Under the pieces are notes generated by a model. The model searched no databases. It saw only the letters and a program-made list of their open reading frames with translations, and had not been told where the DNA came from. Source: Algoriphagus limi (GTDB lineage: Bacteria; Bacteroidota; Bacteroidia; Cytophagales; Cyclobacteriaceae). From it: a DNA stretch of 64,000 nucleotides. Position 1 is the first letter of the stretch; each line of letters begins with the position of its first letter. This document shows, in pieces, positions 37,564-62,888 of the stretch. A program made the translations under genes and the position numbers. Location of the stretch: contig NZ_JANWGH010000002.1 in the NCBI RefSeq assembly GCF_024919275.1, forward strand, positions 620,001-684,000, read 5' to 3'.

Positions 37564-39714
37564 TTAATTGAATTTTTCAGCTCGTTTTATCAGCTTATCC
37601 AGATTGGGTTCTTTCGAGTTTAGAGGCGCTCCGGGATGAATACATCCTGCGGGGCATTTCTCCGCTGCTTTTACCAACTCTTCAAAGGTCCCCTTAGAAG
37701 GGTCATCGATGTAGGCTTGTTTGTCCTTATTGTACTTGAAAAGCTTGGGATACTTATCCACACACTCATTACAGGAGGTGCAATTTTCAGTTTCAACCCA
37801 AGGGCCACTGACTTGATTGAAGGTAGTTTCCTCTTTAGTCACAACTTCTTTTTGGATAGCAGGACTTTCCTCTTTCAAGGGCCGCTCTTCGGTTAAAGCC
37901 GCTTCGTTAAACTTGAATTCTTCATCATCCAACAAGACTGAAATCAAGCGTTGAGCCGCCACCGAAATGGCTTCTTCTTGAAGGCTTTTCAATAGTTCCT
38001 GTCGATCAGTTTCGGAGGAAACACCTGGTTCTGCCCCTATTTTAACTTGATCCATTGGAGTAGATTCTCCTCCTATTGCGACCTCAGGTATTCCGGCTAA
38101 TTCTCTTAATTGATTCCAAAAATCCAAGCGCTCTTGGCAGGATACTACCCATACATTAGGCACTGCTGCACGCAACAAATGTCCAGTTTCGTCTTTTACC
38201 CAGATAAAAGGGATTTTGCCATAGAGCTTAGATTCTTCCAATTCTAAATATTCGCTAATTGACACCAAATGCTCAGTGTAATATCTGGAAGGAATAAACA
38301 TCAACTCTTCAGCTTTTTCAGGGAAAATGGCTTTGTAGTCTGCATAGGTAAATGCGGCCTCAATTTTCGTTAAACCATCTGACCCTTTTGCAGATAGGCT
38401 AAAGGTAGGCCAGGCCTTTGATGCTTGGATGTTTTTAGAAAGTTGAAATCTTTTTCCAGAAACACTTCTCTGAGTAGGGTTATAGCTGATTTTTGGAAAA
38501 TACCGACTGGCATTTTCGGCTTTCATAATTAAGCTCGGTGTATTTCCTTCTAACTCCTTTTCATCGGGAAGGGAAAGGTAGCAAATGCTTGGGGAGGTTG
38601 ATTTTAAGCAATCGTGGATTCCTTCCAAGATTAATTCAGGTTCATCCATGCCACTTTGAAAAACAGACACATTTCGATGAGCAATCCCCAGAGTGGCGAT
38701 TTCTTGTTTGTACTGCCGCGAAGCATCTTCCCAAGCTAAATCTTTGTCCGGTGTCGTGATCAGTTCTTGATTTAGGACGAGCACTTTGATAGGTCTATTG
38801 GAAGCTAGAAGCTTTGAAAAAGAAGTCAAATGATCAAATAAATAGCCCTTATCCACAATCAGAATGACTGGGTGAAATAAATTGAGTTCCTCCTGAGATA
38901 ATCGATACCAGGTAAAGTGATCAAAATATTCCTCATGAATTTCTTCTTTGAATTCATCTTTGATCTCCAAAGAAGCAATTCGAAATGCCCTGATCAATTC
39001 AACAAATGATTTTACCTCTTTGCTGAATAGCTCGAGTGTTTCATTAAAAGCATCATTGTTGGTTTCGACTATTTGGGAGTTTTTAAATAACTTCTCTTTG
39101 GAGATAGCCTCTTTCCAGCTTTTTTCAAGTACAACCACACTCTCCTTTTCTTTGTAATGATTTAGGCCTTTTTGAAGAGTGGAAATTACTTCAGTAAGTC
39201 GTTGAAGGCGCTTTTCGGAAAGTTCGGCTTTCTGATTTTTTGGAAGTAGGTTAACCATTTTATCAAAAGCGATCAACTCATCCGCAAAATCAAAGGTGTT
39301 TTTCAGGGATTCCTGTTCTGCCTGACTGTCTTCAATCTGCAAAAGCTTATTTAAGCCCGTAATTAATTCAGACAATTGAGAAGTAAAGGACTTTCGGTTG
39401 CTTACATGGTGCTTGGAAACCAAGTAATCCAAAAATTGAAATGGGGTATTTGAATTTAGGTTTATGCTTCGACTCATGCCATTTTTTTCTGCAATAGTGA
39501 AGGGATAGGAAGAAGCCTCTCCTTCATCCAAATAATCTAAAAGAGCAGAAGTTACATGCATTCTTTTACCATCTTTTGGAAGAATGCATGTTCTATAAAA
39601 ATGCCGTAATTTTTTCCAAAAGGCTTGCATTTCGGCTTCGGGAACCGGATCGCTTTTTTCCCAAATGAGGGGCTGATGATCCACCATTGTGTTATTTTTC
39701 AATTCTTCTTTCAT
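37564..39714 (-). CDS. PFOR-like protein lacking TPP-binding motifs, with C-terminal ferredoxin domain
   Basis: The start at 39714 follows the korB stop by 10 bp with an AAGG just ahead and gives 716 residues; the start at 39765 would overlap korB by 41 bp. Residues from about 264 onward parallel the C-terminal third of the PFOR at 48907-53820: FDHFTWYRLSQEEL against FTYFNWKQFTDEEW, IPFIWVKDETGHLLR against FPFIWAVDRKNQLTR, SCQERLDFWNQLRELAG against SCEERRDFWILLRDLAG. The TPP motif GDG-x4-DIG is VDKG-x3-FDHL here (about 287-295) and the NTGG loop is TTPD. A [4Fe-4S] ferredoxin domain is intact (Cys645, 648, 651, 687). The N-terminal 260 residues are helical and unrecognised. It looks like a catalytically dead subunit or electron-transfer partner. 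Confidence 0.78.
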   Translation of the reverse strand: MKEELKNNTMVDHQPLIWEKSDPVPEAEMQAFWKKLRHFYRTCILPKDGKRMHVTSALLDYLDEGEASSYPFTIAEKNGMSRSINLNSNTPFQFLDYLVSKHHVSNRKSFTSQLSELITGLNKLLQIEDSQAEQESLKNTFDFADELIAFDKMVNLLPKNQKAELSEKRLQRLTEVISTLQKGLNHYKEKESVVVLEKSWKEAISKEKLFKNSQIVETNNDAFNETLELFSKEVKSFVELIRAFRIASLEIKDEFKEEIHEEYFDHFTWYRLSQEELNLFHPVILIVDKGYLFDHLTSFSKLLASNRPIKVLVLNQELITTPDKDLAWEDASRQYKQEIATLGIAHRNVSVFQSGMDEPELILEGIHDCLKSTSPSICYLSLPDEKELEGNTPSLIMKAENASRYFPKISYNPTQRSVSGKRFQLSKNIQASKAWPTFSLSAKGSDGLTKIEAAFTYADYKAIFPEKAEELMFIPSRYYTEHLVSISEYLELEESKLYGKIPFIWVKDETGHLLRAAVPNVWVVSCQERLDFWNQLRELAGIPEVAIGGESTPMDQVKIGAEPGVSSETDRQELLKSLQEEAISVAAQRLISVLLDDEEFKFNEAALTEERPLKEESPAIQKEVVTKEETTFNQVSGPWVETENCTSCNECVDKYPKLFKYNKDKQAYIDDPSKGTFEELVKAAEKCPAGCIHPGAPLNSKEPNLDKLIKRAEKFN

Positions 39715-39724: not shown

Positions 39725-40687
39725 TTAAATGGCGTATCGATCCATGAGCGTATTGATGGCTCCAATTCGTTCTTCTACTGAAATTCCCAAATTGTGGGCA
39801 CCATATTCATCATATCGGACGGCGTTTTTATTTTGATAAAAGAGTCCAATAGGTGTGGTTTCTTTTACCAATTCGGCCATTTCTCGGGCTTTGAGAAGGT
39901 TGCTTGGATCGTGCTGTTCAATATGGCGGAAAGTGCTTTTAGCTTTTTCATCCAATACGATACCATCCTCATGATCCAACAAGGTTAGAGCATTTGGATC
40001 TTTGACAGTTGGCTCATAGGTGTCCCGCATCCAAATTGGGCAGCGTTGCACAATTCGTACAAAAGCCAATCCGGGATGATCAAAAGCCTTTTTCAGTGTA
40101 GCATTCAGATGCGCTGGTTTCCAATCAATGGTTTGGGCTACAAAAGAGACATTTGCAAAACCCAAGGTTGACTGAATAGGATTGATGGGTGGAATGACAG
40201 ATCCTCTTGGGTGAGTATTGGAATGGGTACCTAAGGGACTGGTTGGAGAAGTTTGTTTTTTTGTCAATCCATAGATTGAATTATCAAAAAGCAAAACCAC
40301 CATTTTCATATTGTAGCGAATGCCATGTACCCAATGACCGGCACCGATAGAGCAGCAGTCCCCATCCCCCGTGATTACAAATACGTTCAGATCGGGTCTT
40401 CGAAATTTCACCCCACTTGCTACAGGGAGAGCTCTACCGTGTAAGCCATGAAAACCATAGGTCTTCATATAGTGAGGAAAGCGGCTGCTACAGCCAATTC
40501 CCGACACAAATACGGTTTTTTCTGGAGGAAGCTGCTCATCCTCACAGAGCTTTTGTACCGAATGCAATATAGTATGAGCGCCGCAGCCAGAGCACCATCT
40601 TGCTTTACTGCTTCCATAATCCTCAATGCTGTAATGCCCTTCTTCCGGAAGTGCGATTTCACAAAAATCTGGTTGAAAAGAAATCAT
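39725..40687 (-). CDS. korB: 2-oxoacid:ferredoxin oxidoreductase, beta subunit (TPP-binding)
   Basis: This 320-residue protein carries the TPP pyrophosphate motif GDGDCCSIGAGH (GDG at 107-109) and, downstream, DNSIYGLTKKQTSPTSP, which is typical of 2-oxoglutarate (Kor) and related beta subunits. Cys32, Cys35 and Cys66 (WCSGCGAH, GIGCSSRF) with a later cysteine would bind the [4Fe-4S] cluster next to TPP. The gene is 3 bp downstream of the alpha-gamma subunit gene. Substrate choice (2-oxoglutarate or pyruvate) is inferred: the YGLTKGQ-like motif favours 2-oxoglutarate, and a separate PFOR is present. Reaction direction cannot be read from sequence. Confidence 0.92.
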   Translation of the reverse strand: MISFQPDFCEIALPEEGHYSIEDYGSSKARWCSGCGAHTILHSVQKLCEDEQLPPEKTVFVSGIGCSSRFPHYMKTYGFHGLHGRALPVASGVKFRRPDLNVFVITGDGDCCSIGAGHWVHGIRYNMKMVVLLFDNSIYGLTKKQTSPTSPLGTHSNTHPRGSVIPPINPIQSTLGFANVSFVAQTIDWKPAHLNATLKKAFDHPGLAFVRIVQRCPIWMRDTYEPTVKDPNALTLLDHEDGIVLDEKAKSTFRHIEQHDPSNLLKAREMAELVKETTPIGLFYQNKNAVRYDEYGAHNLGISVEERIGAINTLMDRYAI

Positions 40688-40690: not shown

Positions 40691-42583
40691 CTAGTCGATT
40701 AAGGTTAAGTTGAGTTCTTTCTCGAGCCTTTGTAAAATCTGAATCGGGCTCATGGGTTGTCCGTAAACATTGCTTAAGCAATCAATGTCAGTAAGCGTCT
40801 GCGCTCTCAGGTACCAAGCCAATTGGGAATAGCGCCTGTTTTCTACTGTGATCAAAGGATTTCCAACGGTATCGCTGTAATTGATTTCTACCGTCATCAC
40901 TTTTTTAAACTTGTCGAAGATGTTCTTCAGTCCAGGTTCCATAGGACTTAGAAAACGGAGGTGAATACTACTCACTTTTGCTCCTTTTTCTTTGGCTCTT
41001 TCTGCCGCTTCTTCTATAGCTCCCCGGGTTGATCCCCAACCTACCAATAATAGGTCGCCTTCCTCATCGCCATGGATAGTAGGTGGCTTCAGCGTTTCTC
41101 GCAGAGCAGCCAATTTGCGGCTTCTGCTTTCCACAGCCCGTTGGTTGATGGCAGGGTCGTATGCGACATGACTATCTTCATCATGTGCTAGTCCGGTTAA
41201 GGTATACATTCCGCCTTTCTGTCCCGGAATTGGTCTTTTGCTAATTCCTGTGTGTTTGTCCCAATCATAGACTTTGACCCCTTCTTTCCAAGGGCTTTGG
41301 TCCAAAGGTTCAGGAAACCATTCGGCTTTGATTTTTGGACGAGGGAAGGGCTGTACGCCTGTGGCTAAATTGGCATCTGTCAGCACAAAAACTGGAGTTC
41401 TAAATGATTCTGCCAGCTTCCTGGCCAAAATGACAAAATGGAAGCACTCCTCTATGGTAGATGGGGCAAGTACTACCTTCGGTGCATCACCGGGGGCACC
41501 ATACAGTACAGCCAATAAGTCTCCCTGCTCCACCTTGGTTGGTAAGCCAGTAGATGGTCCTCCCCGTTGCACATCGATGATGACTAAAGGGATTTCCGCC
41601 ATAATGGCTAAACCAATAAATTCTGTTTTAAGCGCGATGCCTGGCCCTGAAGTAATGGTAACGGCCGTTTTCCCGGCATAGGAGGCACCTACCGCAAAAC
41701 CAATTGCAGCAATTTCATCTTCAGCTTGGTGGATAATTCCCCCTGCCGATTCGATGGTTTCTGCCATCGCATGGGTAGCAGATGTGGCTGGAGTGATGGG
41801 ATACATGGAACATACTTCAATTCCTGCCGCCATGACCCCAAGGCTTATCGCCTCATTCCCGTTCATTACCACATAGTCTTCCTCACTCAGTTTGCTTGGA
41901 ATGGTGAAATGCATGGGGAAGTTATCATTGGCATACTCATACCCGGCATAGAGTAATTCGAGGTTGCTTTGAATAATCTTCTCATCCTTTTTTCGGAAGA
42001 TATACTTGACTTGATTTGCTGCGATTTCCAGATCTCGATCATAGAGGTTGCAAAGCAGGCCGAGCACCCACATATTTTTGCCTTTTTTGGCATCACTTAC
42101 ATGCTTCAGGCATTCCTTTTCCATAGGAATTTCAAAGATGTTGTATCCCAATTCTTTGAAGTGCTCTATGGATTCTTTGTAGGCGATCGCTGTTTCCTCC
42201 GTATGCGTAGCCCATTTATTTTCGATGAGAAGGTAAGTTCCCGGCTTATAAGCATTTTGGTCTATGCGTCCATAAAGGACTTGCTCATTGAGAGCAACCA
42301 CCAAATCGGCATGGTCACCCATGTTGGTGATTTTGTTACTGCCCATCCTTACCCTGATTCCAGATGCACCTGCTTTGGATCGGGCTGGAGGTTGGATTTC
42401 TGCCGGAATAATTTCAACTGTCCATACACCATTTCCCATTTTTGCGGAAATGGCTCCCAAGCTTTGTCCACATTTTTGTGCGCCTTCGCCTGAGTCACTG
42501 ACAATCTCAATTACGGCTTCTTTGATTTTGGTCCTTTCAAATCGATTCGTTTCGGAAGGTTGACTGGCTGGATTACTGATCAT
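40691..42583 (-). CDS. korA: 2-oxoacid:ferredoxin oxidoreductase, fused gamma-alpha subunit
   Basis: This 630-residue protein fuses two subunits that are separate in many archaea. The N-terminal gamma domain (about residues 20-190) has VSDSGEGAQKCGQSLGAI, and the alpha domain follows, with VMNGNEAISLGVMAAG, the YPITPATSATHAMAE motif and EDEIAAIGFAVGASYAG; TSGPGIALKTEFIGLA and DVQRGGPSTGLPTKVEQGDLL are the usual alpha motifs. It pairs with the beta subunit downstream to form a two-protein enzyme. The gap to rnfB (159 bp) is the largest inside this gene string and may contain its own promoter. Confidence 0.92.
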   Translation of the reverse strand: MISNPASQPSETNRFERTKIKEAVIEIVSDSGEGAQKCGQSLGAISAKMGNGVWTVEIIPAEIQPPARSKAGASGIRVRMGSNKITNMGDHADLVVALNEQVLYGRIDQNAYKPGTYLLIENKWATHTEETAIAYKESIEHFKELGYNIFEIPMEKECLKHVSDAKKGKNMWVLGLLCNLYDRDLEIAANQVKYIFRKKDEKIIQSNLELLYAGYEYANDNFPMHFTIPSKLSEEDYVVMNGNEAISLGVMAAGIEVCSMYPITPATSATHAMAETIESAGGIIHQAEDEIAAIGFAVGASYAGKTAVTITSGPGIALKTEFIGLAIMAEIPLVIIDVQRGGPSTGLPTKVEQGDLLAVLYGAPGDAPKVVLAPSTIEECFHFVILARKLAESFRTPVFVLTDANLATGVQPFPRPKIKAEWFPEPLDQSPWKEGVKVYDWDKHTGISKRPIPGQKGGMYTLTGLAHDEDSHVAYDPAINQRAVESRSRKLAALRETLKPPTIHGDEEGDLLLVGWGSTRGAIEEAAERAKEKGAKVSSIHLRFLSPMEPGLKNIFDKFKKVMTVEINYSDTVGNPLITVENRRYSQLAWYLRAQTLTDIDCLSNVYGQPMSPIQILQRLEKELNLTLID

Positions 42584-42742: not shown

Positions 42743-43609
42743 TTAGGAAAAACCAGGCTCTCTATCACCTTTACGGATGATTTTCGCACTTTCTTTTCCT
42801 TTTACTATTCCCAATTTTGGATCAAGCCAAACGATTGCTCCGGTCGGGCATCGCTGAATTGGGTCTTGGGTTTGGTGGGCCAGTGAATAGTTGATAACTG
42901 GCAGGTTATTTTCAATCACAATAAGGTCTCCCGGCGCATCCATAGCACATCGACCGCAAGCGGTACAGGCTACTTGGCAGTCTTCCAGAATCTCATCTCC
43001 TTTTTCCAGATTTTTGCAGTTTACCCAAAGTTGGTGGCTGATAGGTTGAAGAGAAAACAAGTCCTTTGGACACACTTCTACACAATCTCCGCAAGCGGTA
43101 CATTTATCAAGATCTACGACTGGCAAGGAATGCTCATTCATATGAATGGCGTCGAAATCACATACTTTTTGACAGTCTCCCAGACCCAGGCAACCCCAAA
43201 AACACCCTTTTCCCCCGCCACTCACCAAAGCGGCTGCTTGACAACTCTCAAGCCCCTCATATTTGGCTTTATTTCGAGCCACATTCGTACCGCCTCCACA
43301 AGCTAATCGGGCCACTTTCTTTTCTTCATCCCCTACGGAAATACCAAGGAACTCTCCGATAGCCTCCCTGCCTTCAGGTGAACTGACTGTACAATTGCTG
43401 GGTAGGACTTTTCCAGAAACCAAGGCTTCCGCAAAGGGTCTACAACCCGGAAAACCACAGGCACCGCAATTCGCATGTGGCAGCATATCTTCCACCACAT
43501 TGATACGCTCATCCTCATAGACATAAAGTTTCTTATTAGCCACTACTAATAAGATGGCCAGGGCTAGGGTGAGTCCACCAAGTGCTAAAACTGCGATGAC
43601 TATTGACAT
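42743..43609 (-). CDS. rnfB: Electron transport complex subunit RnfB
   Basis: This 288-residue protein is the iron-sulfur entry subunit of the Rnf complex. It has one N-terminal membrane helix (about residues 3-24), the RnfB cluster motif with Cys48, 51, 56 and 73 (NCGACGFPGCRPFAEAL), then a long cysteine-rich region: Cys136, 140, 146, 150, a ferredoxin set Cys170, 173, 176, 180 (CTACGDCVEVCP) and CTACGRCAMDAPGD near 215-226. There are 20 cysteines in total, enough for up to five [4Fe-4S] clusters. It is separated from rnfA by two extra genes, unlike the usual contiguous order. It probably accepts electrons from ferredoxin. Confidence 0.93.
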   Translation of the reverse strand: MSIVIAVLALGGLTLALAILLVVANKKLYVYEDERINVVEDMLPHANCGACGFPGCRPFAEALVSGKVLPSNCTVSSPEGREAIGEFLGISVGDEEKKVARLACGGGTNVARNKAKYEGLESCQAAALVSGGGKGCFWGCLGLGDCQKVCDFDAIHMNEHSLPVVDLDKCTACGDCVEVCPKDLFSLQPISHQLWVNCKNLEKGDEILEDCQVACTACGRCAMDAPGDLIVIENNLPVINYSLAHQTQDPIQRCPTGAIVWLDPKLGIVKGKESAKIIRKGDREPGFS

Positions 43610-43620: not shown

Positions 43621-44478
43621 CTAGTAGATGATTTCAGCCCATTTTTTACCTGCGATAAGTTCCGCTTTTCTGGTTTCCCATTTTTCCTCAGAACCCATCA
43701 ATTTGCTAAATACCTCATCCAACCCTTCCTTCACTTTTTCATGTCCGGCTACATAGATGTAGGTGTTAAGACTGGAAAGCATTTCTATTATTTCTTCTGA
43801 TCGGTCTTCAATGGATTGATTTAAGGTCATGACATCGTTCCACAAAGGTCTTGGGCTCAAAGCATGAATGGCTTGAAAAGTCTTTTGATCGTAATAACTG
43901 GTCAGGTCATTATCCAACTCATTTTGGTATAGCAATTCGAGCCCTGTCTTGGCTCCGTAGAAAAGCCGTATTCTTCCTCTCCAATCGCTGATGTGGGTGT
44001 AAATGTGCTTGATAAATGCTCTAAAAGGAGCGATACCTGTACCCATTCCGATCAAAATTAAATTGGCTTCATGGTCTTCAGGGACTTTAAAGGGAAGGCC
44101 AAACGGACCGGTGATGGTAATTTCATCTCCTACTTTTCGATCACAGAGGTAATTGGAAGCAATCCCATATTCGAGTTCTCCGCTGAATGGATCCACATAA
44201 TTACAGCGCTTCACCAAAAGCGTGACTCTTGTTTTGCCTTTTACTTTTTCGGGCAAATCAGCCACACTGTACAAGCGATGGTGCATGGTGTTTCCGAAAT
44301 CATCCTTTGTTTGGATCAAAACCCCAAAACTTTGATCAACTTCACAATGAAATGAAGGATCTTTCACTTCCAAAATCAATTCCCGGACTTCTTCCGTGTC
44401 TTCAGGAGTTAACCTTCGTGTCTTTTTAACAGTGGCAGCATATTGCCTTCGGGTGTCAAAATCTGATAAATGTGCCAT
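43621..44478 (-). CDS. Plant-type ferredoxin-NADP reductase-like flavoprotein
   Basis: Starting at 44478, 4 bp after the preceding gene, gives 285 residues; a start at 44610 would overlap that gene by 128 bp. The FAD domain shows RLYS at 68-71, GPFGLPF near 124-130, and the NADP-domain motif GMGTGIAPFRAF (144-155), FYGAKTG and a YVAGHEKVKEGLD segment. The chain ends W-x-x-I-I-Y, whose aromatic terminus matches FNRs where the last Tyr stacks on FAD. It should exchange electrons between ferredoxin or flavodoxin and NADP(H). Its position between rnfA and rnfB is unusual. Confidence 0.87.
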   Translation of the reverse strand: MAHLSDFDTRRQYAATVKKTRRLTPEDTEEVRELILEVKDPSFHCEVDQSFGVLIQTKDDFGNTMHHRLYSVADLPEKVKGKTRVTLLVKRCNYVDPFSGELEYGIASNYLCDRKVGDEITITGPFGLPFKVPEDHEANLILIGMGTGIAPFRAFIKHIYTHISDWRGRIRLFYGAKTGLELLYQNELDNDLTSYYDQKTFQAIHALSPRPLWNDVMTLNQSIEDRSEEIIEMLSSLNTYIYVAGHEKVKEGLDEVFSKLMGSEEKWETRKAELIAGKKWAEIIY

Positions 44479-44482
44479 TTTC

Positions 44483-44671
44483 TTATTCTTTAGTAGTTTT
44501 TCTTTGACATACCGTGCCACAACCGCAATTGCCACAATCCCCTCTTCCGGCAAGCACGTCTTCTGATGAGTGTTTATCCATAAAAGCCAATCGCCATAGG
44601 TATTGAACAATAACCCAGGCCAGCATTAAGCCCGTTATTCCAAGTATTCCGATTAGGTATTTGACCATCAT
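44483..44671 (-). CDS. Small Cys-rich single-pass membrane protein, NqrM-like in layout
   Basis: This 62-residue protein has one N-terminal membrane helix (about residues 4-29) followed by a short tail with four cysteines in the pattern C-x2-C-x-C-x3-C (Cys46, 49, 51, 55 in GDCGNCGCGTVCQ). It begins 12 bp after rnfA. Its shape recalls NqrM, the small Cys protein that assists iron-sulfur maturation of the Na+-NQR, an Rnf relative; the sequence itself is not clearly NqrM. A maturation role for the membrane iron centre of RnfA/RnfE is an inference. Confidence 0.7.
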   Translation of the reverse strand: MMVKYLIGILGITGLMLAWVIVQYLWRLAFMDKHSSEDVLAGRGDCGNCGCGTVCQRKTTKE

Positions 44672-44683: not shown

Positions 44684-45265
44684 TTAACTTCCCAATCCTG
44701 AAAATCCCATAAATGCGAGGGATAAAATCCCTGCTGCTACCAAGGTCAAGACGGTACCTCTGATGACTTTGGGTACTTCCGCAAAATCAAGTTGCTCACG
44801 TAACCCGGCCATCAACAGGAGGGCTAGTGTAAATCCTGTTCCGGCACCGAATGCATAGGTGACGCTTTGGAAGAAATCGTATCCCTTATTGGTTTGAAAT
44901 AAGGCCAAGCCCAAGATGGCACAGTTAGTCGTGATCAAGGGAAGGAAGATTCCCAAGGCTTGGAATAGTGCAGGACTCATTTTCTTCACGAACATTTCCA
45001 CCAATTGTACTGTGGAGGCGATGACCACGATATAGCTGATCAATTGGAGGAACGGCGCGTCAATTGCCTCCAAAAAGGCATGAATTCCATAGGCACACAT
45101 GGAGCTAATGAGCATCACAAAGGTTACGGCTCCTCCCATTTTTCCAGCGGTATTAATTTTCCCCGAAACTCCCAAAAAGGGACATATTCCAAGAAAATAG
45201 GCCAACACAAAGTTGTTTACCAAGGCGGCATTGATGAATATTTGGCTGAATGATTCCTGATTCAT
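44684..45265 (-). CDS. rnfA: Electron transport complex subunit RnfA
   Basis: This 193-residue protein has six predicted membrane helices and the RnfA/NqrE pattern. Cys28 (FLGICPFLGVS) and Cys115 (TTNCAILGLAL) are the conserved ligands that, with the matching cysteines of RnfE, hold the membrane-embedded iron-sulfur centre in the NQR/Rnf family. The start overlaps the rnfE stop by 4 bp (ATGA). Its location right before a Cys-rich small gene is notable. Confidence 0.94.
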   Translation of the reverse strand: MNQESFSQIFINAALVNNFVLAYFLGICPFLGVSGKINTAGKMGGAVTFVMLISSMCAYGIHAFLEAIDAPFLQLISYIVVIASTVQLVEMFVKKMSPALFQALGIFLPLITTNCAILGLALFQTNKGYDFFQSVTYAFGAGTGFTLALLLMAGLREQLDFAEVPKVIRGTVLTLVAAGILSLAFMGFSGLGS

Positions 45266-45891
45266 AATGCGTTGCGTTTTTGTTTATACAAGTTGAAAAC
45301 CAATAACCAGGCTGCCAATGTGAAGAAGCCTCCGGCAGGAAGAATCATAATAACCCATTCCTGAAAGGTATCAGGAAGAATAGCGATTCCGAATATTGAT
45401 CCACTTCCCAAAATCTCTCTCACCATACCAAGACTAACCAAACCGAGGGTGAAGCCTAAGCCCATGCCCAAGGCATCCATTATAGATTTTGTTAAGGTAT
45501 TTTTTGATGCAAAAGCCTCGGCGCGGCTGAGGATAAGACAGTTCACTACTATAAGAGAGATGAATGCGCCAAGATTCTTGTGAAGGTCTACACTAATGGC
45601 TTGGATTGCATAGTCAATCATGGTCACGAAAGTGGCGATGATGAGAATGTAGGATGCGATGCGCACCTCTTTTGGGATAAAATTGCGCAGCATTGAAACT
45701 AAACTATTGGACATTATCAGTACAAAAGCGGTTGCTAATCCCATAGCAAGCGCATTGACTGCCGTATTCGAAACTGCCAATACCGGACACATCCCCAAGA
45801 CTTGGACAAAAACCGGGTTCTCTTTCCACAAGCCTTTGATAAACTCATCGGTCGTGTTAGGTGCCGTCGCTTTAGTTATCTCATTGTTCAT
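45262..45891 (-). CDS. rnfE: Electron transport complex subunit RnfE
   Basis: Starting at 45891 (MNNEITKATAPNTTDEF) gives 209 residues, the family norm, with an 11-bp overlap of rnfG; a start at 45951 would overlap rnfG by 71 bp and is rejected. The protein has about six membrane helices and the paired ligand cysteines Cys35 (GMCPVLAVS) and Cys118 (VVNCLILSRAEAF), equivalent to those in RnfA. It is a paralog of RnfA and of NqrD. Confidence 0.93.
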   Translation of the reverse strand: MNNEITKATAPNTTDEFIKGLWKENPVFVQVLGMCPVLAVSNTAVNALAMGLATAFVLIMSNSLVSMLRNFIPKEVRIASYILIIATFVTMIDYAIQAISVDLHKNLGAFISLIVVNCLILSRAEAFASKNTLTKSIMDALGMGLGFTLGLVSLGMVREILGSGSIFGIAILPDTFQEWVIMILPAGGFFTLAAWLLVFNLYKQKRNAL

Positions 45892-46561
45892 TTTCGAGGG
45901 AATTAAAAGCTGTCTTGTTTTTGTAAATAAGCGGTGCCCACTCTGAAGCACTTGCGTTAATTATTTCTCCAATAGCACGAGAGGAAATGGTTGCGCCACT
46001 GATACCGTCTACTTCCCAAGCATTGGTTTTTGTACCTTTTTTGACAGTGACAACCCGGTTCTGTAAAGTCGATTGGTCATCGTTAAGATCTACATCCAAG
46101 GCTGTGAAATTTTCAAGGAAGGTGGGATCTTTCTCAATTTTATCTCCTAATCCCGGAGTTTCTTTGCTTTCCAAGACGTAGAATCCAACCACTGTCTGAT
46201 TTTCCGGGTCATATCCATAAATGATCTTGATTTGATCAGCATAGCCTTGCCCACTTGCTACAATAGCAATCCCCTTGAAATTTCCTTCGCTGTCATACCC
46301 GGCATAGACTACGTCTGTATCCGTTTCTTCTGCAGGAACAAAAGCATTGTTTTTATATGCATAGGGCTGCATTTCGGTGATTCCAGGAAGTACCTTAAAG
46401 ATCGCCTCTTTGAGGGCTTCTGCTCTCAGAAATTCAATTCGTGGCAAGGTTCCTTCATAGGTGAATACGATCAGTATCCCACAAATAATACCGATGCCAG
46501 CCATGGCACGCAGCATTTTAAAGCTATTGGAAGGAGGTGCTATGGTCTTTGAATCTGTCAT
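45881..46561 (-). CDS. rnfG: Electron transport complex subunit RnfG (covalent FMN)
   Basis: This 226-residue protein has one N-terminal membrane helix (about residues 17-34) and a periplasmic FMN-binding domain with ESKETPGLGDKI and the flavinylation motif SGATISS, where Thr191 should receive FMN from ApbE. It overlaps rnfD by 4 bp and rnfE by 11 bp. No apbE gene is visible in the window, so the flavin transferase must be elsewhere. Confidence 0.93.
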   Translation of the reverse strand: MTDSKTIAPPSNSFKMLRAMAGIGIICGILIVFTYEGTLPRIEFLRAEALKEAIFKVLPGITEMQPYAYKNNAFVPAEETDTDVVYAGYDSEGNFKGIAIVASGQGYADQIKIIYGYDPENQTVVGFYVLESKETPGLGDKIEKDPTFLENFTALDVDLNDDQSTLQNRVVTVKKGTKTNAWEVDGISGATISSRAIGEIINASASEWAPLIYKNKTAFNSLENEQ

Positions 46562-47571
46562 GATGATTTTAATGAAGTTCCATAAACCCGATAGCGAATC
46601 AATCGATCGATATGAGGTGAAATAGCATTCCCTAACAAGATGGCATACATAACTCCTTCAGGAAGTCCACCCCAAATCCGTATTACCACGATTAGTGTTC
46701 CGATAATGGCTCCGTAAAGGATGACTCCCCATTTGGTGATGGGTGAAGCCACCATGTCGGTTGCCATAAAGACTGCACCGAGCATCAGTCCTCCTGAAAA
46801 GAGCATAAATAAAGGAGAGGGATACTTGGAAGGATCTATCCAATAGAATATGCCGCTCAAAATAAAGACTGTCGCAAGGATGGAGACTGGAATTCTCCAA
46901 TTCATAAAGTTTCTCAAGGCCAGATAAACTCCTCCCAAAAGAATCAAAATGGCACTTGTTTCTCCAGCAGACCCGCTTACAAAACCAAAAGCCAAATCTG
47001 CTGTGTCGGTGACAACCCCGTCAAACTTAAAAGCTGAAAGAGGTGTGGCACCCGATACTCCGTCAACCATCGGTTTCATAAATGGGGCTGCAAACAGCGA
47101 ACTGTTGATAGTAGTAAATCGATCTGCCGCAAATCCGTCATACCAAGTGGTAATGGCAACAGGGAATGCTCCCTGAAGTACAGCTCTTCCAACTAAGGCT
47201 GGGTTAAAAACATTATAGCCCAAGCCTCCAAAAAGGAATTTACCAACGCTTATGGCGATAACACCGCCTAAGAAGGTCATCCAAAGTGGAAAAGTGGGAG
47301 GTAAGGTTAGACCTAATAGTAATCCTGTGATGATTGCCGACCAATCGGAGACAGTACTTCTTTTCTTTGATAATCGGCAAAGCACATGTTCGGTTAATAC
47401 ACAGGATAAAGTGGACGTAATCAATACCAAGGCAGCATTCCAGCCGAAGACATATACTGAAAATGCGGCCGCAGGTAACATAGCCCAAACCACATTGCGC
47501 ATAATGATCTCCACACTAGTTCCTTTGACCAAATGTGGTGAGGTGCTGATATGTAATGTTTGCTTAAACAT
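46558..47571 (-). CDS. rnfD: Electron transport complex subunit RnfD (covalent FMN)
   Basis: The start at 47571 gives 337 residues beginning MFKQTLHISTSPHLVKG, the conserved RnfD N-terminus, overlapping rnfC by 8 bp; a start at 47670 is too far into rnfC. The protein has about nine to ten membrane helices. The flavinylation motif SGATPLSA carries Thr176. The NVFNPALVGRA segment is typical. RnfD is an ion-translocating subunit and homolog of NqrB. Confidence 0.94.
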   Translation of the reverse strand: MFKQTLHISTSPHLVKGTSVEIIMRNVVWAMLPAAAFSVYVFGWNAALVLITSTLSCVLTEHVLCRLSKKRSTVSDWSAIITGLLLGLTLPPTFPLWMTFLGGVIAISVGKFLFGGLGYNVFNPALVGRAVLQGAFPVAITTWYDGFAADRFTTINSSLFAAPFMKPMVDGVSGATPLSAFKFDGVVTDTADLAFGFVSGSAGETSAILILLGGVYLALRNFMNWRIPVSILATVFILSGIFYWIDPSKYPSPLFMLFSGGLMLGAVFMATDMVASPITKWGVILYGAIIGTLIVVIRIWGGLPEGVMYAILLGNAISPHIDRLIRYRVYGTSLKSS

Positions 47572-48901
47572 TCTTTGATTTTCTTTTGCGGACAATGGAT
47601 TTGGAAAGTCTGAAGTACTGAACCAATGGAATATGAGATGGGCAGACGAAAGAGCAGGAGCCACATTCAAAGCAGTCCATCAGATTATATTCTTCAGCCA
47701 TTTTATCATAGCTTTCAAATTTGGCTAGGATGCCCAATTTGGAAGGGTTGAGTGAAAGTGGACAGGCATCTACACAAGCGCCGCATTTGATACATGGGTA
47801 CACTTGTGCGGAGCGATGCACTTGCTTTTGGTTGAAAACCACAATTCCTGAGGTGCCTTTGACAATGGAAATGTCCAAATTTCCTACAGCCACTCCCATC
47901 ATGGGTCCTCCCATGTACACCTCGCTAATGCTTTCATCTACTCCCACTTGTTCCAATACATATCGGAGCGGAGTACCAATAGGAATGAGATAATTTCCCT
48001 TCTTCTTGACTCCAGGACCAGTGATAGTAATCACTCGCTCTTGAATACCTCGACCATGGGGTAACAGACGCCCGATTTCTGCTGTTGTTGCTACATTGAC
48101 CACAACGGCATGCACATCGATTGGCAAGCCTCCAGACGGAACTTCCTTGCCCATTAGTGCGGTAATCAGCATTTTCTCGGCACCTTGAGGATATTTTACA
48201 GGAACAACCTGAACAGAGATGGGCTCTTTTCCGGTAAGTTTGCTCGCTAGGAATTCGGCAGCATCTTGCTTATTTGCCTCTATTCCAATGATCGTCTGTT
48301 TCGCACCCGTCGCTTTCATCAGGTATCTAATCCCCATGAAAATATCATCCGGTTGCTCTAGCATCACCCGATGGTCAGTCGTCAGGTAAGGTTCGCATTC
48401 AATTCCATTGATGATGAGGGTTTCGCAGTGCTTTCCTTCTGGAATTTTCAATTTGGCATGAGTAGGAAATGCTGCTCCTCCCAATCCAACAATCCCTGCT
48501 TCCTGAATTCCCAAGAGAATTTCTTCAGGTGTGGCAGTTTCCAAATCTATCGGATCGCCTTCCAGTATTTCCTGAGTGGAGGAAGGAAAAGGTTCCAGGT
48601 AGATTCCGGTTGTCATTTTTCCCGAAAGGGTGGGAACATTGGCAATTTTGCGAATGATTCCACTGGCGGGAGAATGAAGAGGCACAGACAAAAACCCGTC
48701 AGATTCTGCTAATTTTTGTCCCCTAACTACTTCCTGTCCCTCCCGAATGATGATTTTGGAAGGCTTTCCTATGTGCTGGGCAACAGGAAGTATAATTAGC
48801 GGGGCAAAGGAAAACTGCCGAATGGGTAGGCCATTGGTTTCATCTTTATTTTCAGGCGGATGAATACCATGCTTAAAGGTATGTCTGTTGATGGTTAGCA
48901 T
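47564..48901 (-). CDS. rnfC: Electron transport complex subunit RnfC
   Basis: This 445-residue cytoplasmic subunit has the NADH-dehydrogenase-like fold with the FMN/NADH region GIVGLGGAAFPTHAKL, and two [4Fe-4S] ferredoxin motifs near the C-terminus: Cys370-x2-Cys373-x2-Cys376-x3-Cys380 (CIKCGACVDACP) and Cys410-x2-Cys413-x2-Cys416-x3-Cys420 (CFECGSCSFVCP). It exchanges electrons with NAD(H). It starts only 5 bp after the PFOR stop and overlaps rnfD, so pfor and rnf are one transcription unit. The gene order C-D-G-E-A then B is that of clostridial Rnf. Confidence 0.94.
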   Translation of the reverse strand: MLTINRHTFKHGIHPPENKDETNGLPIRQFSFAPLIILPVAQHIGKPSKIIIREGQEVVRGQKLAESDGFLSVPLHSPASGIIRKIANVPTLSGKMTTGIYLEPFPSSTQEILEGDPIDLETATPEEILLGIQEAGIVGLGGAAFPTHAKLKIPEGKHCETLIINGIECEPYLTTDHRVMLEQPDDIFMGIRYLMKATGAKQTIIGIEANKQDAAEFLASKLTGKEPISVQVVPVKYPQGAEKMLITALMGKEVPSGGLPIDVHAVVVNVATTAEIGRLLPHGRGIQERVITITGPGVKKKGNYLIPIGTPLRYVLEQVGVDESISEVYMGGPMMGVAVGNLDISIVKGTSGIVVFNQKQVHRSAQVYPCIKCGACVDACPLSLNPSKLGILAKFESYDKMAEEYNLMDCFECGSCSFVCPSHIPLVQYFRLSKSIVRKRKSKNV

Positions 48902-48906: not shown

Positions 48907-51900
48907 TTAATTGTATTTCTCGGCCCTTTTAATCCATTTTTCAATGTCCTTTCCTGTCTTGTCAGCTGGCAATCCTGGATGGATTACTTGGGCTGTACAT
49001 TTTTCGGCAGCTAGAACGAGGTCCTGATAGGGTCCTGCCTGTGCGTCTTTGATATAGGCTTTTTTATCTTGATTGTATGCAAATATTTTAGGATTCAGAT
49101 TGATGCACTCATTACAGGAGGTGCATTCATCTGTCTCGATCCAAGCTGAAGATTCAGTTTGGGTAGTAGGGGCTTGCTCCTGAGTAGTTGCAGGCTGCTC
49201 GGCAGGGCTTGCCTGCATCATGGAGGAAGATAGATCGATTCCATTTCCACCGGCAAGTTGTGCGAGTTTTCTGGCAATCTTCCCGACAATCTCCGCTCTG
49301 ATTTTGCTTTCTAGATCCTCTTCAGCAGCGGCCTCAGTTTTCGTGCCCGCCAAATCCCGTAGCAAAATCCAGAAGTCTCTTCGTTCCTCGCAAGACTCGA
49401 CAATGGTTTTCGCTACGATTACCCGAGTCAATTGATTTTTTCTGTCTACTGCCCAGATGAATGGGAATTTACCTTCCCGATCCTCCTCGCTCATTTCCAA
49501 GAATTCAGTAAGCAGGATCATATTTTCATTCCAGGTATTTCGAGGAGCATTTCGGAAATGCTTTCTAAATCGGCCTTCAGTCAAGGCGAAGTCCGCAAAG
49601 GTCATTGGAACCTCCATGGATTTTTCAACCCCATTTTCAACATATTTTAATTGATATGTAGGCCAATCCTGATCGATAGCAGGGTTTCCTGATATATCCA
49701 AAGCTTCCTGGATTTTTACACTCAAATCAGGATTGTATCGGAATATTGGATAAGCTCTGGACTCTACAGCCAATTTTGCCTGATGAGATCCTAAATCATC
49801 GGCTACTCCATGCTCAGGTTGACATGTCGTATACAGGTTGAATAAGGCAGGTCGCTTGGTCATCAAACCATCGATAAAGCCTTCTATCATGTGGCTGGTG
49901 TTTGCCAACGTTCCTTGCATCACATAGGTGTTGCGGTGTGCCATGGCAATCAAGCCAATTTCCTTTCGAGGTTCTGGTTTACCTTTCCACACCTTGCCGT
50001 ATTGCGCCATGTCAGATACCTGACCGATGAAGCCTGAGGTACATGCCTGTCCACCAGTGTTGGAGTACACTTGAGTGTCCACGACAATTACTTTGATTGG
50101 TTTTCCGGAAGCCATCATTCTGGAGAGGTTTTGGAAGCCGATGTCATACATGGCACCATCACCACCCAAGGCTACGACAGGAGGACAAAGCAACCATTCT
50201 TCATCTGTGAATTGCTTCCAATTGAAGTAGGTAAAGAAATCTTTGTGTTCTTCTGCTTTGTACTTGCCTTCGAGAATCAAATTTGCTTTTCGAATAGCCT
50301 TGAATCCATCTGCCATCTTAGACATGTGACCCTCAAAGATCCCCATCGCCATGGATGGTGAATCCTGGAAGAGATGGTTTGCCCAAGGGAATGGGTATGG
50401 ATTGTAAGGGTAAGTACTACCCCAAACAGAGGTACATCCTGTGGCATTGGTCATACCCATAGCAGATCGACCTCGGCCCGTTGTTCCTTCTGTGTATTTC
50501 CATTTCAGTTTTCTGAGTTCTGAAATCAGATGGCTAGTTTCTTTTAGCCATTCCTGGTCAATCGGTTTGGTTCCGCTTACTGCTTCCAATTTGCTGGCAA
50601 TGCCAGACATGGTTAGATCAGTGTTTCGAGACTCGTTGAGAATCCTTTCTATCGCATCTGTATCCTTGATATTGATGGATTCCAGAAGTCGGGATTGAAT
50701 GTGTTGCTCTAGTTTTTGGATAAGTTCATCCAACTGATCGATATGCTTCTTAATGCGGGGTTGCATCAAGGATTCTACCGTCGCAATGAATAAATGCACC
50801 ACTGATTTTTCGGAGCAGCCAAGACAGGCACCATCCCCACTCACAAAGTGCTGGTAAGCATCCTTATTTAATAAGATGGTTTCCAGCGGTCCAATTTTTT
50901 CCTCTAAACTGTCAATTCGATTGAATATTTCAGGAGTGGTAGGAAGGTCTGACCACAAATCCCAGTCTTTTCTCAATCGGGCAATCGAACCTTCTGTCTG
51001 AATCACGGATACTAAGGCATCATCTTCGCAGACCTTGATACATTCATTACAGCCTTTACAGGTATTTGGATTGACAGTGATGCTGAACAAGCCCCCGCTG
51101 TTCGGGGATTTTTTTTCATGCAAATCGTAGTAAGGACGGGTCAAAGCAAATTTGAAGTCTCCCAGTTCTTCTTTGAACCAGCCGAGCTCATTCACCATAT
51201 CTGCATTGTCCTTGTTTTCCTCAGTCAATTGGTCGATTCCAATGTGGATCAATTGATTTACAGTTTGGTCTTCCGCTGCGTCCTTAAACAATGCTCTAAC
51301 CTTACTTTCCAGTGTACGGACTGCTTTGGTCAAATGCGTGACGTTATCATGATTCTTTTTGACCCGCTTTACGACTGTTTCAAGTACATCTTTCAAATCA
51401 CTCACCAAGCCTGGAATTGCTGTGTCAGGACAGACTGTGTAGCATTTGCCGCAGGCGGTACAATTATTCGGAATCCATTCAGGGTGCTCAAAGCGGATGC
51501 CTGACATATCACGGAAAACCGCCGTAGTGGCAGGCATCAAACTCAAACCGATAAATGGATCGGTGAGGTTGTCATTTCCCATTCCTTGCGCATAGAAATT
51601 ACCTGTTTGCTCCCAGAATCGGTGGATATCACTCAATTTGGATTGGCTCTGAGGTAATTCCTTCAGCATTTTTGGCAGCGGAATACCTACACTTTGGGCT
51701 GCTTGTCCGTTGGTGCCGGTTTGAATCTCTTTAGTTAGAATTTCATGCACCTCAGTAAATCCGCGCTTCACCACCCGCATGTTATCATCTACCACTCGCT
51801 GACCTTTGGCACCAAACTTATGCTGTAGCTGGTCTTCGATGGCTTTGAGTAATTCTTTTTCATTTAATCCTGCACTTTCCATCAAAGGAGAGGCCGCAAA

Positions 51901-53820
51901 GAATGCCCCTTGGAAGGCGATCCCTTGCATACGCAATTGCAACTCAGGATCTGTGGCCTCTTCACGGGCGATTTTAAATCCATCGATATAGAATACCCGT
52001 ATCTTGTTGTCGATGATGATTTTTTGGTATCGCTTTGGAATGTCAGCCCAAACTTCATCAGGAGAGGTTTTCTCGCTTTGAATGATAAAGCATCCGCCTT
52101 CCTTCAAGCCTGCCAATGCATTCGTGTGCTTAAAGACATTCGGGTCTGGAGAAAGCACTACGTCCACAAAATAAAACTCACAGTTCATCCGAATAGGCTC
52201 GGGTGCAGCTGCTAGGTAGTAGGTGGTAGGCTGACCTTTCTTTTCAGATCCATACTTGGGATTTGCTTTGATATCAAAACCCAAAAGATCATAAAGCGTC
52301 ATCGCTAAGTTTTTCCCGGTCGTAATTGCTCCCCATCCCCCAATGGAGTGAAAGCGAACCGTCGTCGCCCCTTTAGGCATGAGGTTTGGATTTTCCGATC
52401 CACGGATTCCTAAATCCTTGATATTGGGATAGGCCTCGAGGATAGTTTCCTGATAGGCCCGTTGTTTAGGGGTAAAGGCATTCTCCCGGATAAAGTCGAT
52501 GGAAAGGTAGAAGTGCTTTTTATGTTTTCCTTCGGGCAACATGTTTTCCACAGCCCCGATAATTCCTTCAGCTTGTAAGTCACGGCTACCCATTCCAAAT
52601 GAACCAGAGTAAAGCCTAGGTACGTCCTTGGCCTGATGATAAGATTCTATATCTGGATAGGGCTTTTGTCCGTCTGATAATCCGTTTTCCAAACATTTGG
52701 AAATCACAGCTCGCAACTCTCTCGCGATGGGAAGATCTTCTGCCAACGGCTGGTCAAGTCGTTCTAGAACGACAACTCCTTTTTTGCCTTTGATGACTTT
52801 AGAAAGAAGATCAGAAGGGAAAGGTCGGAACATGACCAGATTGACTACCCCAACTTTTATTTTTCGGGTGGCTCTTAGGTAATCAGCTACTGCTTCAGCA
52901 CTTGGAATCAAGCTTCCCTGACCTAAAATCAAATAATCGGCATCTTCTGCCTTGTAAGTCATGACCCGTTGATATTGTCTTCCGGTTAGTTCGGCATATT
53001 CATCAAATGCCTTGTCAGCGATGGCTTTAATATGATCAAAAAAGAAAGGGCGCTGGGCTGCCACACTTTGCATGTAGGAATCCTGATTTTGCACGATACC
53101 CGCCATTAGAGGATTATCCACATCCCAGAGTTCTGGAATTCTTCTTCGCTTTTCTCCATAAATAATCCGCTGGGCTGGAGTAGGAGTATCAATGATATCG
53201 TCCGGTCTGCCGAGAAATTCCTTGATCAGTTCCCTCTCAGGTACATACAAACTTTCAATTAGGTGAGTGGTCAAGAAACCATCCTGAGCAATAATCCCCG
53301 GTGTAAGTGCGAGCTCAGCAATATGGTGTGCCAGCACGTTTAAATCTGCCACATGTTGGGCATTTTTGGCAAACATCTGGAAAAAGCCCGTGTCATCCAC
53401 TGCATGATAATCATCATGTCCTGCGTGCACATTCAAGGTGGATTTTGTCATGGCTCTCGCACCTATGTTCAATACATAAGTAAGGCGTTTACCTACGGCT
53501 GCATACAAGGATTCGTGCATGTAAGCTATACCTTGCCCGGATGAAAAATTAGCGGCTCGCTGACCCGTCATGGAAAGGCCAGCGGTCACCGCTGCTGCTG
53601 CATGTTCCCCTTCAGGCTCAATAAAGATGAGCGGCTTGTCGGAAATATTAAGGTGTCCTTTAGCAGCTTCTTCAGCCCAATATTCACCCATTTGGGTGGA
53701 GGGGGTGATAGGATAAGCTCCTGCTGCATCTGAGGATTCTCTTTCGCACATAATGGCGGCTGTATTTCCGTCAAGGGCTGCCCGAATCCCAGGGTATTTG
53801 GGGTTAGTTTTATTGCTCAT
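48907..53820 (-). CDS. Pyruvate:ferredoxin (flavodoxin) oxidoreductase, extended form
   Basis: At 1637 residues this is about 450 longer than typical PFOR. Domain order is normal: alpha (YPITPSTQMGEYWAE, 36-50), domain II, gamma (GGWGAITTGKNLA, about 494-506), a ferredoxin domain with Cys787/790/793/797 and Cys921/924/927/931, and the TPP domain with Cys999/1002, GGDGAMYDIG (1219-1228), NTGGQ (1254-1258), NATGC1129 and Cys1333. Two charged helical insertions expand it: about 800-910 inside the ferredoxin domain and about 1010-1105 inside the cluster loop. A Pro/Gln/Thr-rich linker then leads to an extra [4Fe-4S] domain (Cys1566, 1569, 1572, 1608). It interconverts pyruvate and acetyl-CoA plus CO2 using ferredoxin. 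Confidence 0.93.
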   Translation of the reverse strand: MSNKTNPKYPGIRAALDGNTAAIMCERESSDAAGAYPITPSTQMGEYWAEEAAKGHLNISDKPLIFIEPEGEHAAAAVTAGLSMTGQRAANFSSGQGIAYMHESLYAAVGKRLTYVLNIGARAMTKSTLNVHAGHDDYHAVDDTGFFQMFAKNAQHVADLNVLAHHIAELALTPGIIAQDGFLTTHLIESLYVPERELIKEFLGRPDDIIDTPTPAQRIIYGEKRRRIPELWDVDNPLMAGIVQNQDSYMQSVAAQRPFFFDHIKAIADKAFDEYAELTGRQYQRVMTYKAEDADYLILGQGSLIPSAEAVADYLRATRKIKVGVVNLVMFRPFPSDLLSKVIKGKKGVVVLERLDQPLAEDLPIARELRAVISKCLENGLSDGQKPYPDIESYHQAKDVPRLYSGSFGMGSRDLQAEGIIGAVENMLPEGKHKKHFYLSIDFIRENAFTPKQRAYQETILEAYPNIKDLGIRGSENPNLMPKGATTVRFHSIGGWGAITTGKNLAMTLYDLLGFDIKANPKYGSEKKGQPTTYYLAAAPEPIRMNCEFYFVDVVLSPDPNVFKHTNALAGLKEGGCFIIQSEKTSPDEVWADIPKRYQKIIIDNKIRVFYIDGFKIAREEATDPELQLRMQGIAFQGAFFAASPLMESAGLNEKELLKAIEDQLQHKFGAKGQRVVDDNMRVVKRGFTEVHEILTKEIQTGTNGQAAQSVGIPLPKMLKELPQSQSKLSDIHRFWEQTGNFYAQGMGNDNLTDPFIGLSLMPATTAVFRDMSGIRFEHPEWIPNNCTACGKCYTVCPDTAIPGLVSDLKDVLETVVKRVKKNHDNVTHLTKAVRTLESKVRALFKDAAEDQTVNQLIHIGIDQLTEENKDNADMVNELGWFKEELGDFKFALTRPYYDLHEKKSPNSGGLFSITVNPNTCKGCNECIKVCEDDALVSVIQTEGSIARLRKDWDLWSDLPTTPEIFNRIDSLEEKIGPLETILLNKDAYQHFVSGDGACLGCSEKSVVHLFIATVESLMQPRIKKHIDQLDELIQKLEQHIQSRLLESINIKDTDAIERILNESRNTDLTMSGIASKLEAVSGTKPIDQEWLKETSHLISELRKLKWKYTEGTTGRGRSAMGMTNATGCTSVWGSTYPYNPYPFPWANHLFQDSPSMAMGIFEGHMSKMADGFKAIRKANLILEGKYKAEEHKDFFTYFNWKQFTDEEWLLCPPVVALGGDGAMYDIGFQNLSRMMASGKPIKVIVVDTQVYSNTGGQACTSGFIGQVSDMAQYGKVWKGKPEPRKEIGLIAMAHRNTYVMQGTLANTSHMIEGFIDGLMTKRPALFNLYTTCQPEHGVADDLGSHQAKLAVESRAYPIFRYNPDLSVKIQEALDISGNPAIDQDWPTYQLKYVENGVEKSMEVPMTFADFALTEGRFRKHFRNAPRNTWNENMILLTEFLEMSEEDREGKFPFIWAVDRKNQLTRVIVAKTIVESCEERRDFWILLRDLAGTKTEAAAEEDLESKIRAEIVGKIARKLAQLAGGNGIDLSSSMMQASPAEQPATTQEQAPTTQTESSAWIETDECTSCNECINLNPKIFAYNQDKKAYIKDAQAGPYQDLVLAAEKCTAQVIHPGLPADKTGKDIEKWIKRAEKYN

Positions 53821-53841: not shown

Positions 53842-54201
53842 TTAATTACCCGATACTACTTTGCGGGTATTTTCAGCCATGATGATAAAATCATTCGCCA
53901 TGTCAATATTCATCCAAGGATCCTCAGTATCAGCTCTGCGATACATGGGGGAAATATGTAAGCTGTTGAACTTGTCATCAATGGCTCTGCACTGTTTCAA
54001 GAGATCGTCAACTTGATCTTTTTCCTGGAACTCAACACCATGCTCATCTAGGAAGCTACCGAGGTAATTTACGACGGCATAATAGGCGTTTCGGCACACG
54101 CTGTAGGCTACTACGTCCTCTTCGGGTCTGCATAATTCATCTTTCGCAGCATAAAAAAAGTTGTCTGCCTTGTCCAGGATTGGGTTTTTTAGATTTTCCA
54201 T
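53842..54201 (-). CDS. HEPN-like small protein upstream of PFOR
   Basis: This 119-residue, all-helical, acidic protein looks like a HEPN-type four-helix bundle: VVAYSVCRNAYYAVVNYLGSF in helix two and MYRRADTEDPWMNIDMANDFI toward the end. The RNase motif of toxin HEPN proteins (R-x4-6-H) is not present, so RNA cleavage is not implied. It ends 21 bp before the PFOR start on the same strand, so it is probably the first gene of the operon. An accessory or assembly role for PFOR is possible; the fold call itself is by pattern only. Confidence 0.6.
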   Translation of the reverse strand: MENLKNPILDKADNFFYAAKDELCRPEEDVVAYSVCRNAYYAVVNYLGSFLDEHGVEFQEKDQVDDLLKQCRAIDDKFNSLHISPMYRRADTEDPWMNIDMANDFIIMAENTRKVVSGN

Positions 54202-61229: not shown

Positions 61230-61241
61230 GGGGTTCGAGTT

Positions 61242-62807: not shown

Positions 62808-62822
62808 ACTGAGAGTTTTGTG

Positions 62823-62830: not shown

Positions 62831-62851
62831 TCGGGCTGGGGTCATATATTT

Positions 62852-62867: not shown

Positions 62868-62888
62868 TGTAAAGCATAAACAAAATAT

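Follow-up and report, generated by a model that had tools for sequence, protein, structure and literature searches.

A PFOR-derived putative pseudoenzyme with a retained ferredoxin domain encoded behind korAB in Algoriphagus limi

The main finding obtained in this work is that the gene lying behind korB in Algoriphagus limi, here named psB, encodes a protein that, along almost its entire sequence, is homologous to the C-terminal half of PFOR. Its catalytic inactivity is inferred from the loss of motifs in the sequence, and no activity data are available. We hypothesize, and hold it to be probable but by no means secured, that psB derives from a long PFOR with a ferredoxin tail, of which it represents the C-terminal half in a catalytically dead form, and that it acts as an accessory partner coupling KorAB to Rnf or Nfn; both the contact and the electron transfer are inferred, there being no interaction, expression or biochemical data. 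A previous sequence-only reading of this DNA had suggested a pseudo-enzyme with a retained job rather than a decaying gene, a suggestion now supported by the absence of stops, the conservation of the cysteines and the linkage to korAB. Three observations go beyond it, namely the presence of a second PFOR derivative, psA, in relatives, the correlation of psB with Rnf/Nfn and the loss of the internal and proximal cluster motifs.

The psB gene and its relationship to PFOR

In the window (the whole stretch of 64,000 nucleotides that was analysed), psB occupies positions 37564..39714 of the minus strand and encodes a PFOR-derived protein of 716 amino acids from an ATG start, in a frame without internal stop. 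The korB gene ends at 39725, 10 nt upstream of this ATG, which agrees with the earlier description of psB as full-length, in frame and placed right after korB. The product consists of a degenerate TPP-type domain (approximately residues 221-540), a low-confidence and probably flexible linker (544-647) and a single [4Fe-4S] ferredoxin domain (639-693). At Pfam cut-offs only this C-terminal ferredoxin is detected, by PF13370 (Fer4_13; 36.4 bits against a cut-off of 24.5, E 8.6e-9) and also by PF13459. Fer4_13 is matched at E <= 0.01 in 12 of the 13 members of the psB alignment, the remaining one being presumably the row of G179, in which the contig edge comes before the domain. At the same threshold, no Pfam match to POR_N was found in the window protein or in the 12 other members.

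The GDG...NTGG sequence constitutes the TPP diphosphate/Mg motif of PFOR-type enzymes and is present in the PFOR rows of our alignments, being kept in 7/7 long and 3/3 split PFORs; it is lost in 18/18 psB rows. In the window protein the GDG position reads VDKG and the NTGG loop has either been deleted or cannot be aligned, and CTSCNEC and the fourth cysteine of the terminal ferredoxin are intact. The alignment with PFOR and the motif rows bear out what had been claimed for VDKG and for the cysteines; the claim that NTGG reads TTPD stands as regards the loss, but TTPD lies where the loop is deleted or unalignable. The window protein likewise lacks the motifs of the two internal [4Fe-4S] clusters of PFOR and the CxxC belonging to the proximal cluster, and its sole CxxC is that of the terminal ferredoxin, with none elsewhere in any of the 18 rows. 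Three of these rows are cut by contig ends; L050 lacks the N-terminus and two rows lack the C-terminus. The ferredoxin cysteines are kept in all 16 rows that reach the C-terminus, 15 columns are invariant across 13 rows, and the site of the diphosphate motif varies or is deleted. No stops or frameshifts were found in the 18 rows as fetched; one TAA was counted in the first match of G828, yet its 757-aa frame is open from the start codon. Interrupted homologs or unconserved ferredoxin cysteines, either of which had been named as grounds for giving up the pseudo-enzyme reading, were not encountered.

In a single BLASTP comparison, residues 221-716 of psB matched the window PFOR with 29% identity (E 3e-69). 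The profile of 13 psB rows aligned with that of the long PFORs from column 737 through the last PFOR column (E 4e-81), the N-terminal part of the alignment being gappy and weaker. Since the profile alignment extends over this range, the match is longer than the last 450 residues previously indicated. The AF2 model of psB (mean pLDDT 73.1, pTM 0.66) falls below pLDDT 50 at residues 544-572 and 587-647, which in the prediction probably form a flexible linker between the core and the ferredoxin, and the ferredoxin domain itself is of low confidence (blocks of pLDDT 44-79). A comparison of a structural model with PFOR had been suggested as a check, and it returned the PFOR fold. The best Foldseek matches in the PDB were PFORs (E 7.7e-8), and all 23 matches with E <= 0.001 were pyruvate/2-oxoacid or oxalate oxidoreductases. 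VIA-align gave Z 21.8 against Moorella PFOR (307 residues, rmsd 5.7) and Z 15.3 against 6N2N_B, the beta subunit of Magnetococcus (193 residues, rmsd 3.5). By sequence, phmmer against the PDB retrieved ferredoxins and one chance-level flagellar match, and the psB profile one ferredoxin; in a plasmid collection two records matched the PFOR-type region, each over less than 80% of the psB query. The monophyly of psB is unresolved (32% of bootstrap trees). That psB arose within Algoriphagus by duplication of its own PFOR was rejected, as the tree does not group the two.

Compared with A. kandeliae, dN/dS was 0.137 for psB, 0.013 for korA, 0.018 for korB and 0.019 for PFOR; for more distant pairs the dS values were mostly saturated. 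The psB gene is under purifying selection, much looser than that on its neighbours; its dN/dS is some 8-10-fold higher than the values for korB and korA, which could mean relaxed constraint.

Gene neighbourhood and distribution of psB

On the minus strand of the window the genes are ordered as follows: a long PFOR of 1637 aa (48907..53820), with intact TPP motifs and a C-terminal Fer4_13, which occupies the place taken by psA in relatives; rnfC (47564..48901), rnfD (46558..47670), rnfG (45881..46561), rnfE (45262..45951) and rnfA (44684..45265); an FNR-like gene for a ferredoxin-NADP reductase/PetH-like flavoprotein (43621..44610, below equivalog cut-offs); rnfB (42743..43609), korA (40691..42583), korB (39725..40687) and psB. 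The products of rnfC (TIGR01945), rnfD (TIGR01946), rnfE (TIGR01948), rnfA (TIGR01943) and rnfB (TIGR01944) score over the cut-off of their families, and that of rnfG just below it (TIGR01947, 97.4 bits against 102). The korA gene encodes an alpha subunit of the gamma-alpha fusion type (TIGR03710, 548.5 bits, cut-off 482.75), and korB the beta subunit of a 2-oxoacid:acceptor oxidoreductase (TIGR02177, 226.8 bits, below the cut-off of 261.9). Because KorB retains GDG...N and four conserved cysteines, KorAB looks catalytically complete. In the psB loci it is probably a 2-oxoglutarate:ferredoxin oxidoreductase, the substrate being inferred without substrate data. The E1 component of 2-oxoglutarate dehydrogenase was found in 18 of the 20 genomes examined, four of which were chosen comparison genomes, and was missing in G791 and G803; KorAB is therefore usually an extra route.

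Some further features of these loci were observed. The unusually long PFOR with a single-cluster ferredoxin tail adjoins rnf in six other loci (L026-L031), which also share a conserved 119-aa protein without Pfam match located upstream of it (53842-54201 in the window). The PetH/BoxA-like flavoprotein stands between rnfA and rnfB in PFOR-rnf clusters and is not among the genes observed after rnfA in L023, L113 and L114, which are clusters of the psA type. Positions 58785-63782 encode DabA (PF10070) together with an antiporter protein resembling DabB and a divergent regulator of the LysR type. In L043 psB is directly followed by LysR, dabB and dabA, and in L027 by LysR and dabB, after which the locus ends. 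A bicarbonate pump (Dab) beside PFOR and KorAB would suit reductive carboxylation. The psB-linked KorB proteins read GDGDCCSIG (GDGDCFSIG in G828), the CC being also found in the psB-less genomes G072 and G214, and three unlinked KorB rows read GDGD[AS][LA]SIG.

The psB gene was identified in 19 genomes, distributed among Bacteroidota, three Cohaesibacter and one 'Deltaproteobacteria' MAG; we take Algoriphagus to belong to the Bacteroidota and Cohaesibacter to the Alphaproteobacteria. Besides the last four, they comprise the window genome, A. kandeliae, the MAGs HF-Din22 and HF-Dia38, and G115, G126, G179, G421, G550, G574, G791, G796, G803, G828 and G868; psB is cut at a contig edge in G868 and is an N-terminal fragment at such an edge in G421. 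The gene is rare, occurring in 2/58 relatives, 5/395 genomes of the class (G421 was added later), 4/395 of the phylum, and 5/149 and 2/146 of two other classes, in samples that overlap. Outside Bacteroidota its spread rests on one two-pattern scan and is a lower bound. The MAG label of L045, Candidatus Competibacteraceae, is probably wrong, as contig C39 of G126, which is of equal length and carries the same psB/psA content, is placed in the class of the window genome.

In all 18 loci with visible upstream DNA, korB directly precedes psB, at a distance of -4 to +17 nt in eleven cases (three Cohaesibacter counted as one); in the nineteenth, L050, the contig begins inside psB. The association with korAB across genomes, whose absence was to have counted against the earlier reading, is in this respect well supported. 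No psB was found beside the four PFOR-rnf clusters lacking korAB (C30 of G421, G024, G016 and G044), nor after the other korAB copies of psB genomes (KorA 28-38% identical) where the following DNA was fetched. In G421 psB was missed at first; a korA of the psB type near a contig edge predicted one, and its first 205 aa were then found. Additional matches of about 470-560 aa were rejected as psB: the pieces in G809, G832 and G887 each represent one half of a split PFOR whose TPP motifs are intact, and those in G802, G819, G824, G835 and G839 were taken likewise, on the basis of frame length and matched range. In gene calling, longer antisense frames can mask genes, as for korA and psA in G550 and nfnA in G791. 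In a KorA tree of 18 psB-linked and 11 unlinked rows the linked rows formed one group (89/83, 91% of bootstrap trees); with four psB-less rows added the group of 22 had 76/73. This grouping of psB-linked KorA sequences is only weakly supported.

Two kinds of partner genes accompany korAB-psB. Genes of rnf occur with psB in 11 genomes, on the same contig in eight of them, including L050, which shows only rnfB; the rnf cluster is broken at contig ends in G179, G421 and G868. In the other eight psB genomes (three Cohaesibacter, G574, G791, G796, G803 and G828), NfnA-like and NfnB-like genes directly precede korA without exception, and rnf genes were not observed next to korAB-psB. For the two sets examined, the pair scored over the cut-offs of NF004862 (sulfide/dihydroorotate dehydrogenase-like) and TIGR01316 (NADPH-dependent glutamate synthase), and we infer that it represents Nfn (NADH-dependent ferredoxin:NADP oxidoreductase). 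The genome of Cohaesibacter marisflavi additionally carries an rnfC at another site, and in Cohaesibacter a PFOR lies approximately 7-25 kb from psB. The frame of 971 aa that immediately follows the long Cohaesibacter PFOR contains an NfnB-like stretch (G915:C19:228214-229539).

A search starting from KorA at E <= 1e-120 recovered 12 genomes (9/395 and 5/395, two common to both samples), of which eight carry psB and four (G072, G214, G438 and G722) do not. Seven of the psB-bearing genomes have rnf genes and G574 has the Nfn-like pair; in the psB-less ones no protein exceeded the family cut-off for RnfC, and a search for NfnB-like genes at 1e-60 found none. The presence of psB is associated with that of Rnf/Nfn-like genes (Fisher p 0.002, 12 genomes, kinship uncorrected), in a set whose members are not independent: G072, G214 and G115 belong to one genus, G421 and G438 to another, and G000 and G182 to a third. 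In the tree G072 and G214 are nested with G115, G438 with G421 and G722 with G868, and since these psB-less genomes stand at three places beside psB-bearing ones, we read them as three separate losses. In G072 and G214 an intact korAB of the psB clade is present without psB, which indicates that KorAB can persist in its absence; the co-occurrence anticipated by the earlier reading holds as linkage but fails as a strict rule. The single match of G072 to the psB profile is weak (7.7e-4) and lies in a 1186-aa frame elsewhere. In G438 korA is cut short and korB had no match in the 20 kb fetched. In G722 the first part of korB is fused in frame to the middle of rnfB across the place of psB (L105:5422-5961), an apparent deletion scar such as a deletion removing psB would leave. 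As the loci of G438 and G722 are broken, a KorAB that looks functional remains in just two of the four genomes without psB.

In five genomes (G115, G126, G179, G550 and G868) psA precedes rnfC at the position of PFOR. Its product measures 1224-1372 aa (without a start in G868; 1232 aa in L045), and in 5/5 cases it has lost the TPP motif and the C-terminal ferredoxin and has kept both internal [4Fe-4S] motifs. In the four psA scanned POR_N is weak, with 33.1 and 27.2 bits against a cut-off of 27 in two and scores below it in the others. The gamma region is reduced to 10-12 residues in three psA and comprises 184 in G550 and 171 in G868, that of G550 not being recognised by Pfam. G421 has both arrangements, a PFOR-Rnf cluster as well as korAB-psB and psA-rnfC on contigs broken at psB and at psA. 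Judged by their motifs, psA and psB keep complementary iron-sulfur parts of the long PFOR.

Possible role of psB

The electron partner of two-subunit 2-oxoacid oxidoreductases is usually said to be a free ferredoxin. We propose that the dead PFOR-type core of psB docks on KorAB, whose KorB shares the fold of that core, and that its ferredoxin domain, held on a linker of about 100 low-confidence residues, would carry electrons. The path would connect the single cluster of KorB either to the ferredoxin site of Rnf, next to which PFOR or psA is placed, or to that of an Nfn-type NAD(P)H:ferredoxin enzyme. In this manner psB may supply a tethered ferredoxin that fills the open pocket of the two-subunit KorAB. 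The direction, oxidation of 2-oxoglutarate or reductive carboxylation, remains unsettled within the proposal. According to the portion of the source available, two-subunit oxidoreductases possess one cluster in the beta subunit and no built-in ferredoxin domain, and have a large open pocket at the position that this domain occupies in PFOR (PMC5020499).

A wider form of this hypothesis, which we offer only as a tentative possibility, is that psA and psB both arose from the long PFOR as dead adaptors that complement each other and that, together with KorAB and Rnf, would constitute a direct 2-oxoglutarate-to-Rnf supercomplex whose electrons are never on free ferredoxin, KorAB-psB alternatively plugging into an Nfn-type enzyme. 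If true, psB riding with KorAB and the complementary psA next to rnfC would represent an enzyme family recycled as wiring.

Other explanations have to be considered. A dead catalytic core, linkage to korAB and a single cluster motif would equally be expected if psB were a structural or regulatory pseudo-subunit of KorAB, acting in assembly, stability or activity control, with its cluster as a redox sensor or a relic. We regard this as unlikely, though not negligible, given that the ferredoxin cysteines are kept in 16/16 complete C-termini and that a plain regulator would not predict the absence of psB where Rnf/Nfn is missing yet KorAB is intact (G072 and G214). The linkage to Rnf/Nfn genes favours a conduit over a plain regulator, conduit and scaffold both remaining inferences. 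It is also conceivable that psB partners the neighbouring active PFOR, for instance as the arm of a heterodimer, its place behind korB being historical. As a PFOR relative with a PFOR nearby in Algoriphagus and some 7-25 kb away in Cohaesibacter, psB could have PFOR as its real partner in the window, where an active PFOR adjoins too; but korB is its constant neighbour, the four PFOR-rnf clusters without korAB have no psB alongside, and in G115, G126, G179, G550 and G868 it is psA, not an active PFOR, that adjoins rnfC, so that we give this explanation little credit. Hardly better placed, and to our judgement slightly worse, is the view that psB is catalytically active and that its remodelled TPP-type domain accommodates a different substrate or cofactor: the fold is kept and 15 columns are invariant in 13 rows, but POR_N was not detected, the diphosphate/Mg motif is absent, and the place it would occupy varies or is deleted among the psB rows. 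Finally, the loss of catalytic motifs and an evolution faster than that of the neighbours might recall a decaying PFOR duplicate, an explanation we rejected in view of 0/18 rows with a stop, purifying selection, conserved ferredoxin cysteines, presence in distant lineages and a tree position away from the PFOR of its own genome.

Comparison with known systems

A tethered partner of KorAB, as we propose for psB, can be set against several described systems. With PFOR (Moorella 6CIN, D. africanus 1B0P) psB shares the order of the C-terminal half and the TPP-type fold, and with the long PFOR of the window the same Fer4_13 ferredoxin tail; it differs from PFOR in lacking the POR_N, PFOR_II and gamma domains, the internal cluster motifs, the proximal CxxC and the TPP motifs. 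The two-subunit OFOR/KorAB enzymes (Sulfolobus 5B46-48, Magnetococcus 6N2N) are of the type encoded right before psB, and the core of psB has the fold of their beta subunit. The Sulfolobus OFOR consists, in the part of the publication available, of no subunits other than alpha and beta, and its acceptor is a cognate ferredoxin that forms a separate protein (PMC5020499). The delta subunit of KorABCD/OorDABC is, like psB, an extra iron-sulfur polypeptide next to alpha and beta, and OorD (NF007205) is the best NCBIfam match of psB, with 12.7 bits against a cut-off of 93 over 20 residues; TIGR02179 gave no match at E <= 1. The delta subunit, however, is a dicluster (8Fe) ferredoxin, whereas psB has one CxxCxxC and a PFOR-derived core of approximately 540 residues.

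In our search of the literature no described protein of the psB kind was found, an absence that carries little weight because the search covered open-access literature and few subscription journals. In tubeworm symbionts, KorABCD genes are interspersed with Hdr-Flx and near Rnf, and a direct transfer of electrons between Kor and a second complex has been proposed; the subunits differ from those of korAB-psB, and the accessible part of that report mentions no PFOR-derived pseudoenzyme (PMC6315080). In Riftia symbionts, as far as the available portion of the source goes, a 'PFOR-like' gene falls in expression together with a dimeric korAB (PMC11636981), its identity with psB not being established. 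As regards annotation, 'PFOR-like' genes beside korAB need not be PFORs.
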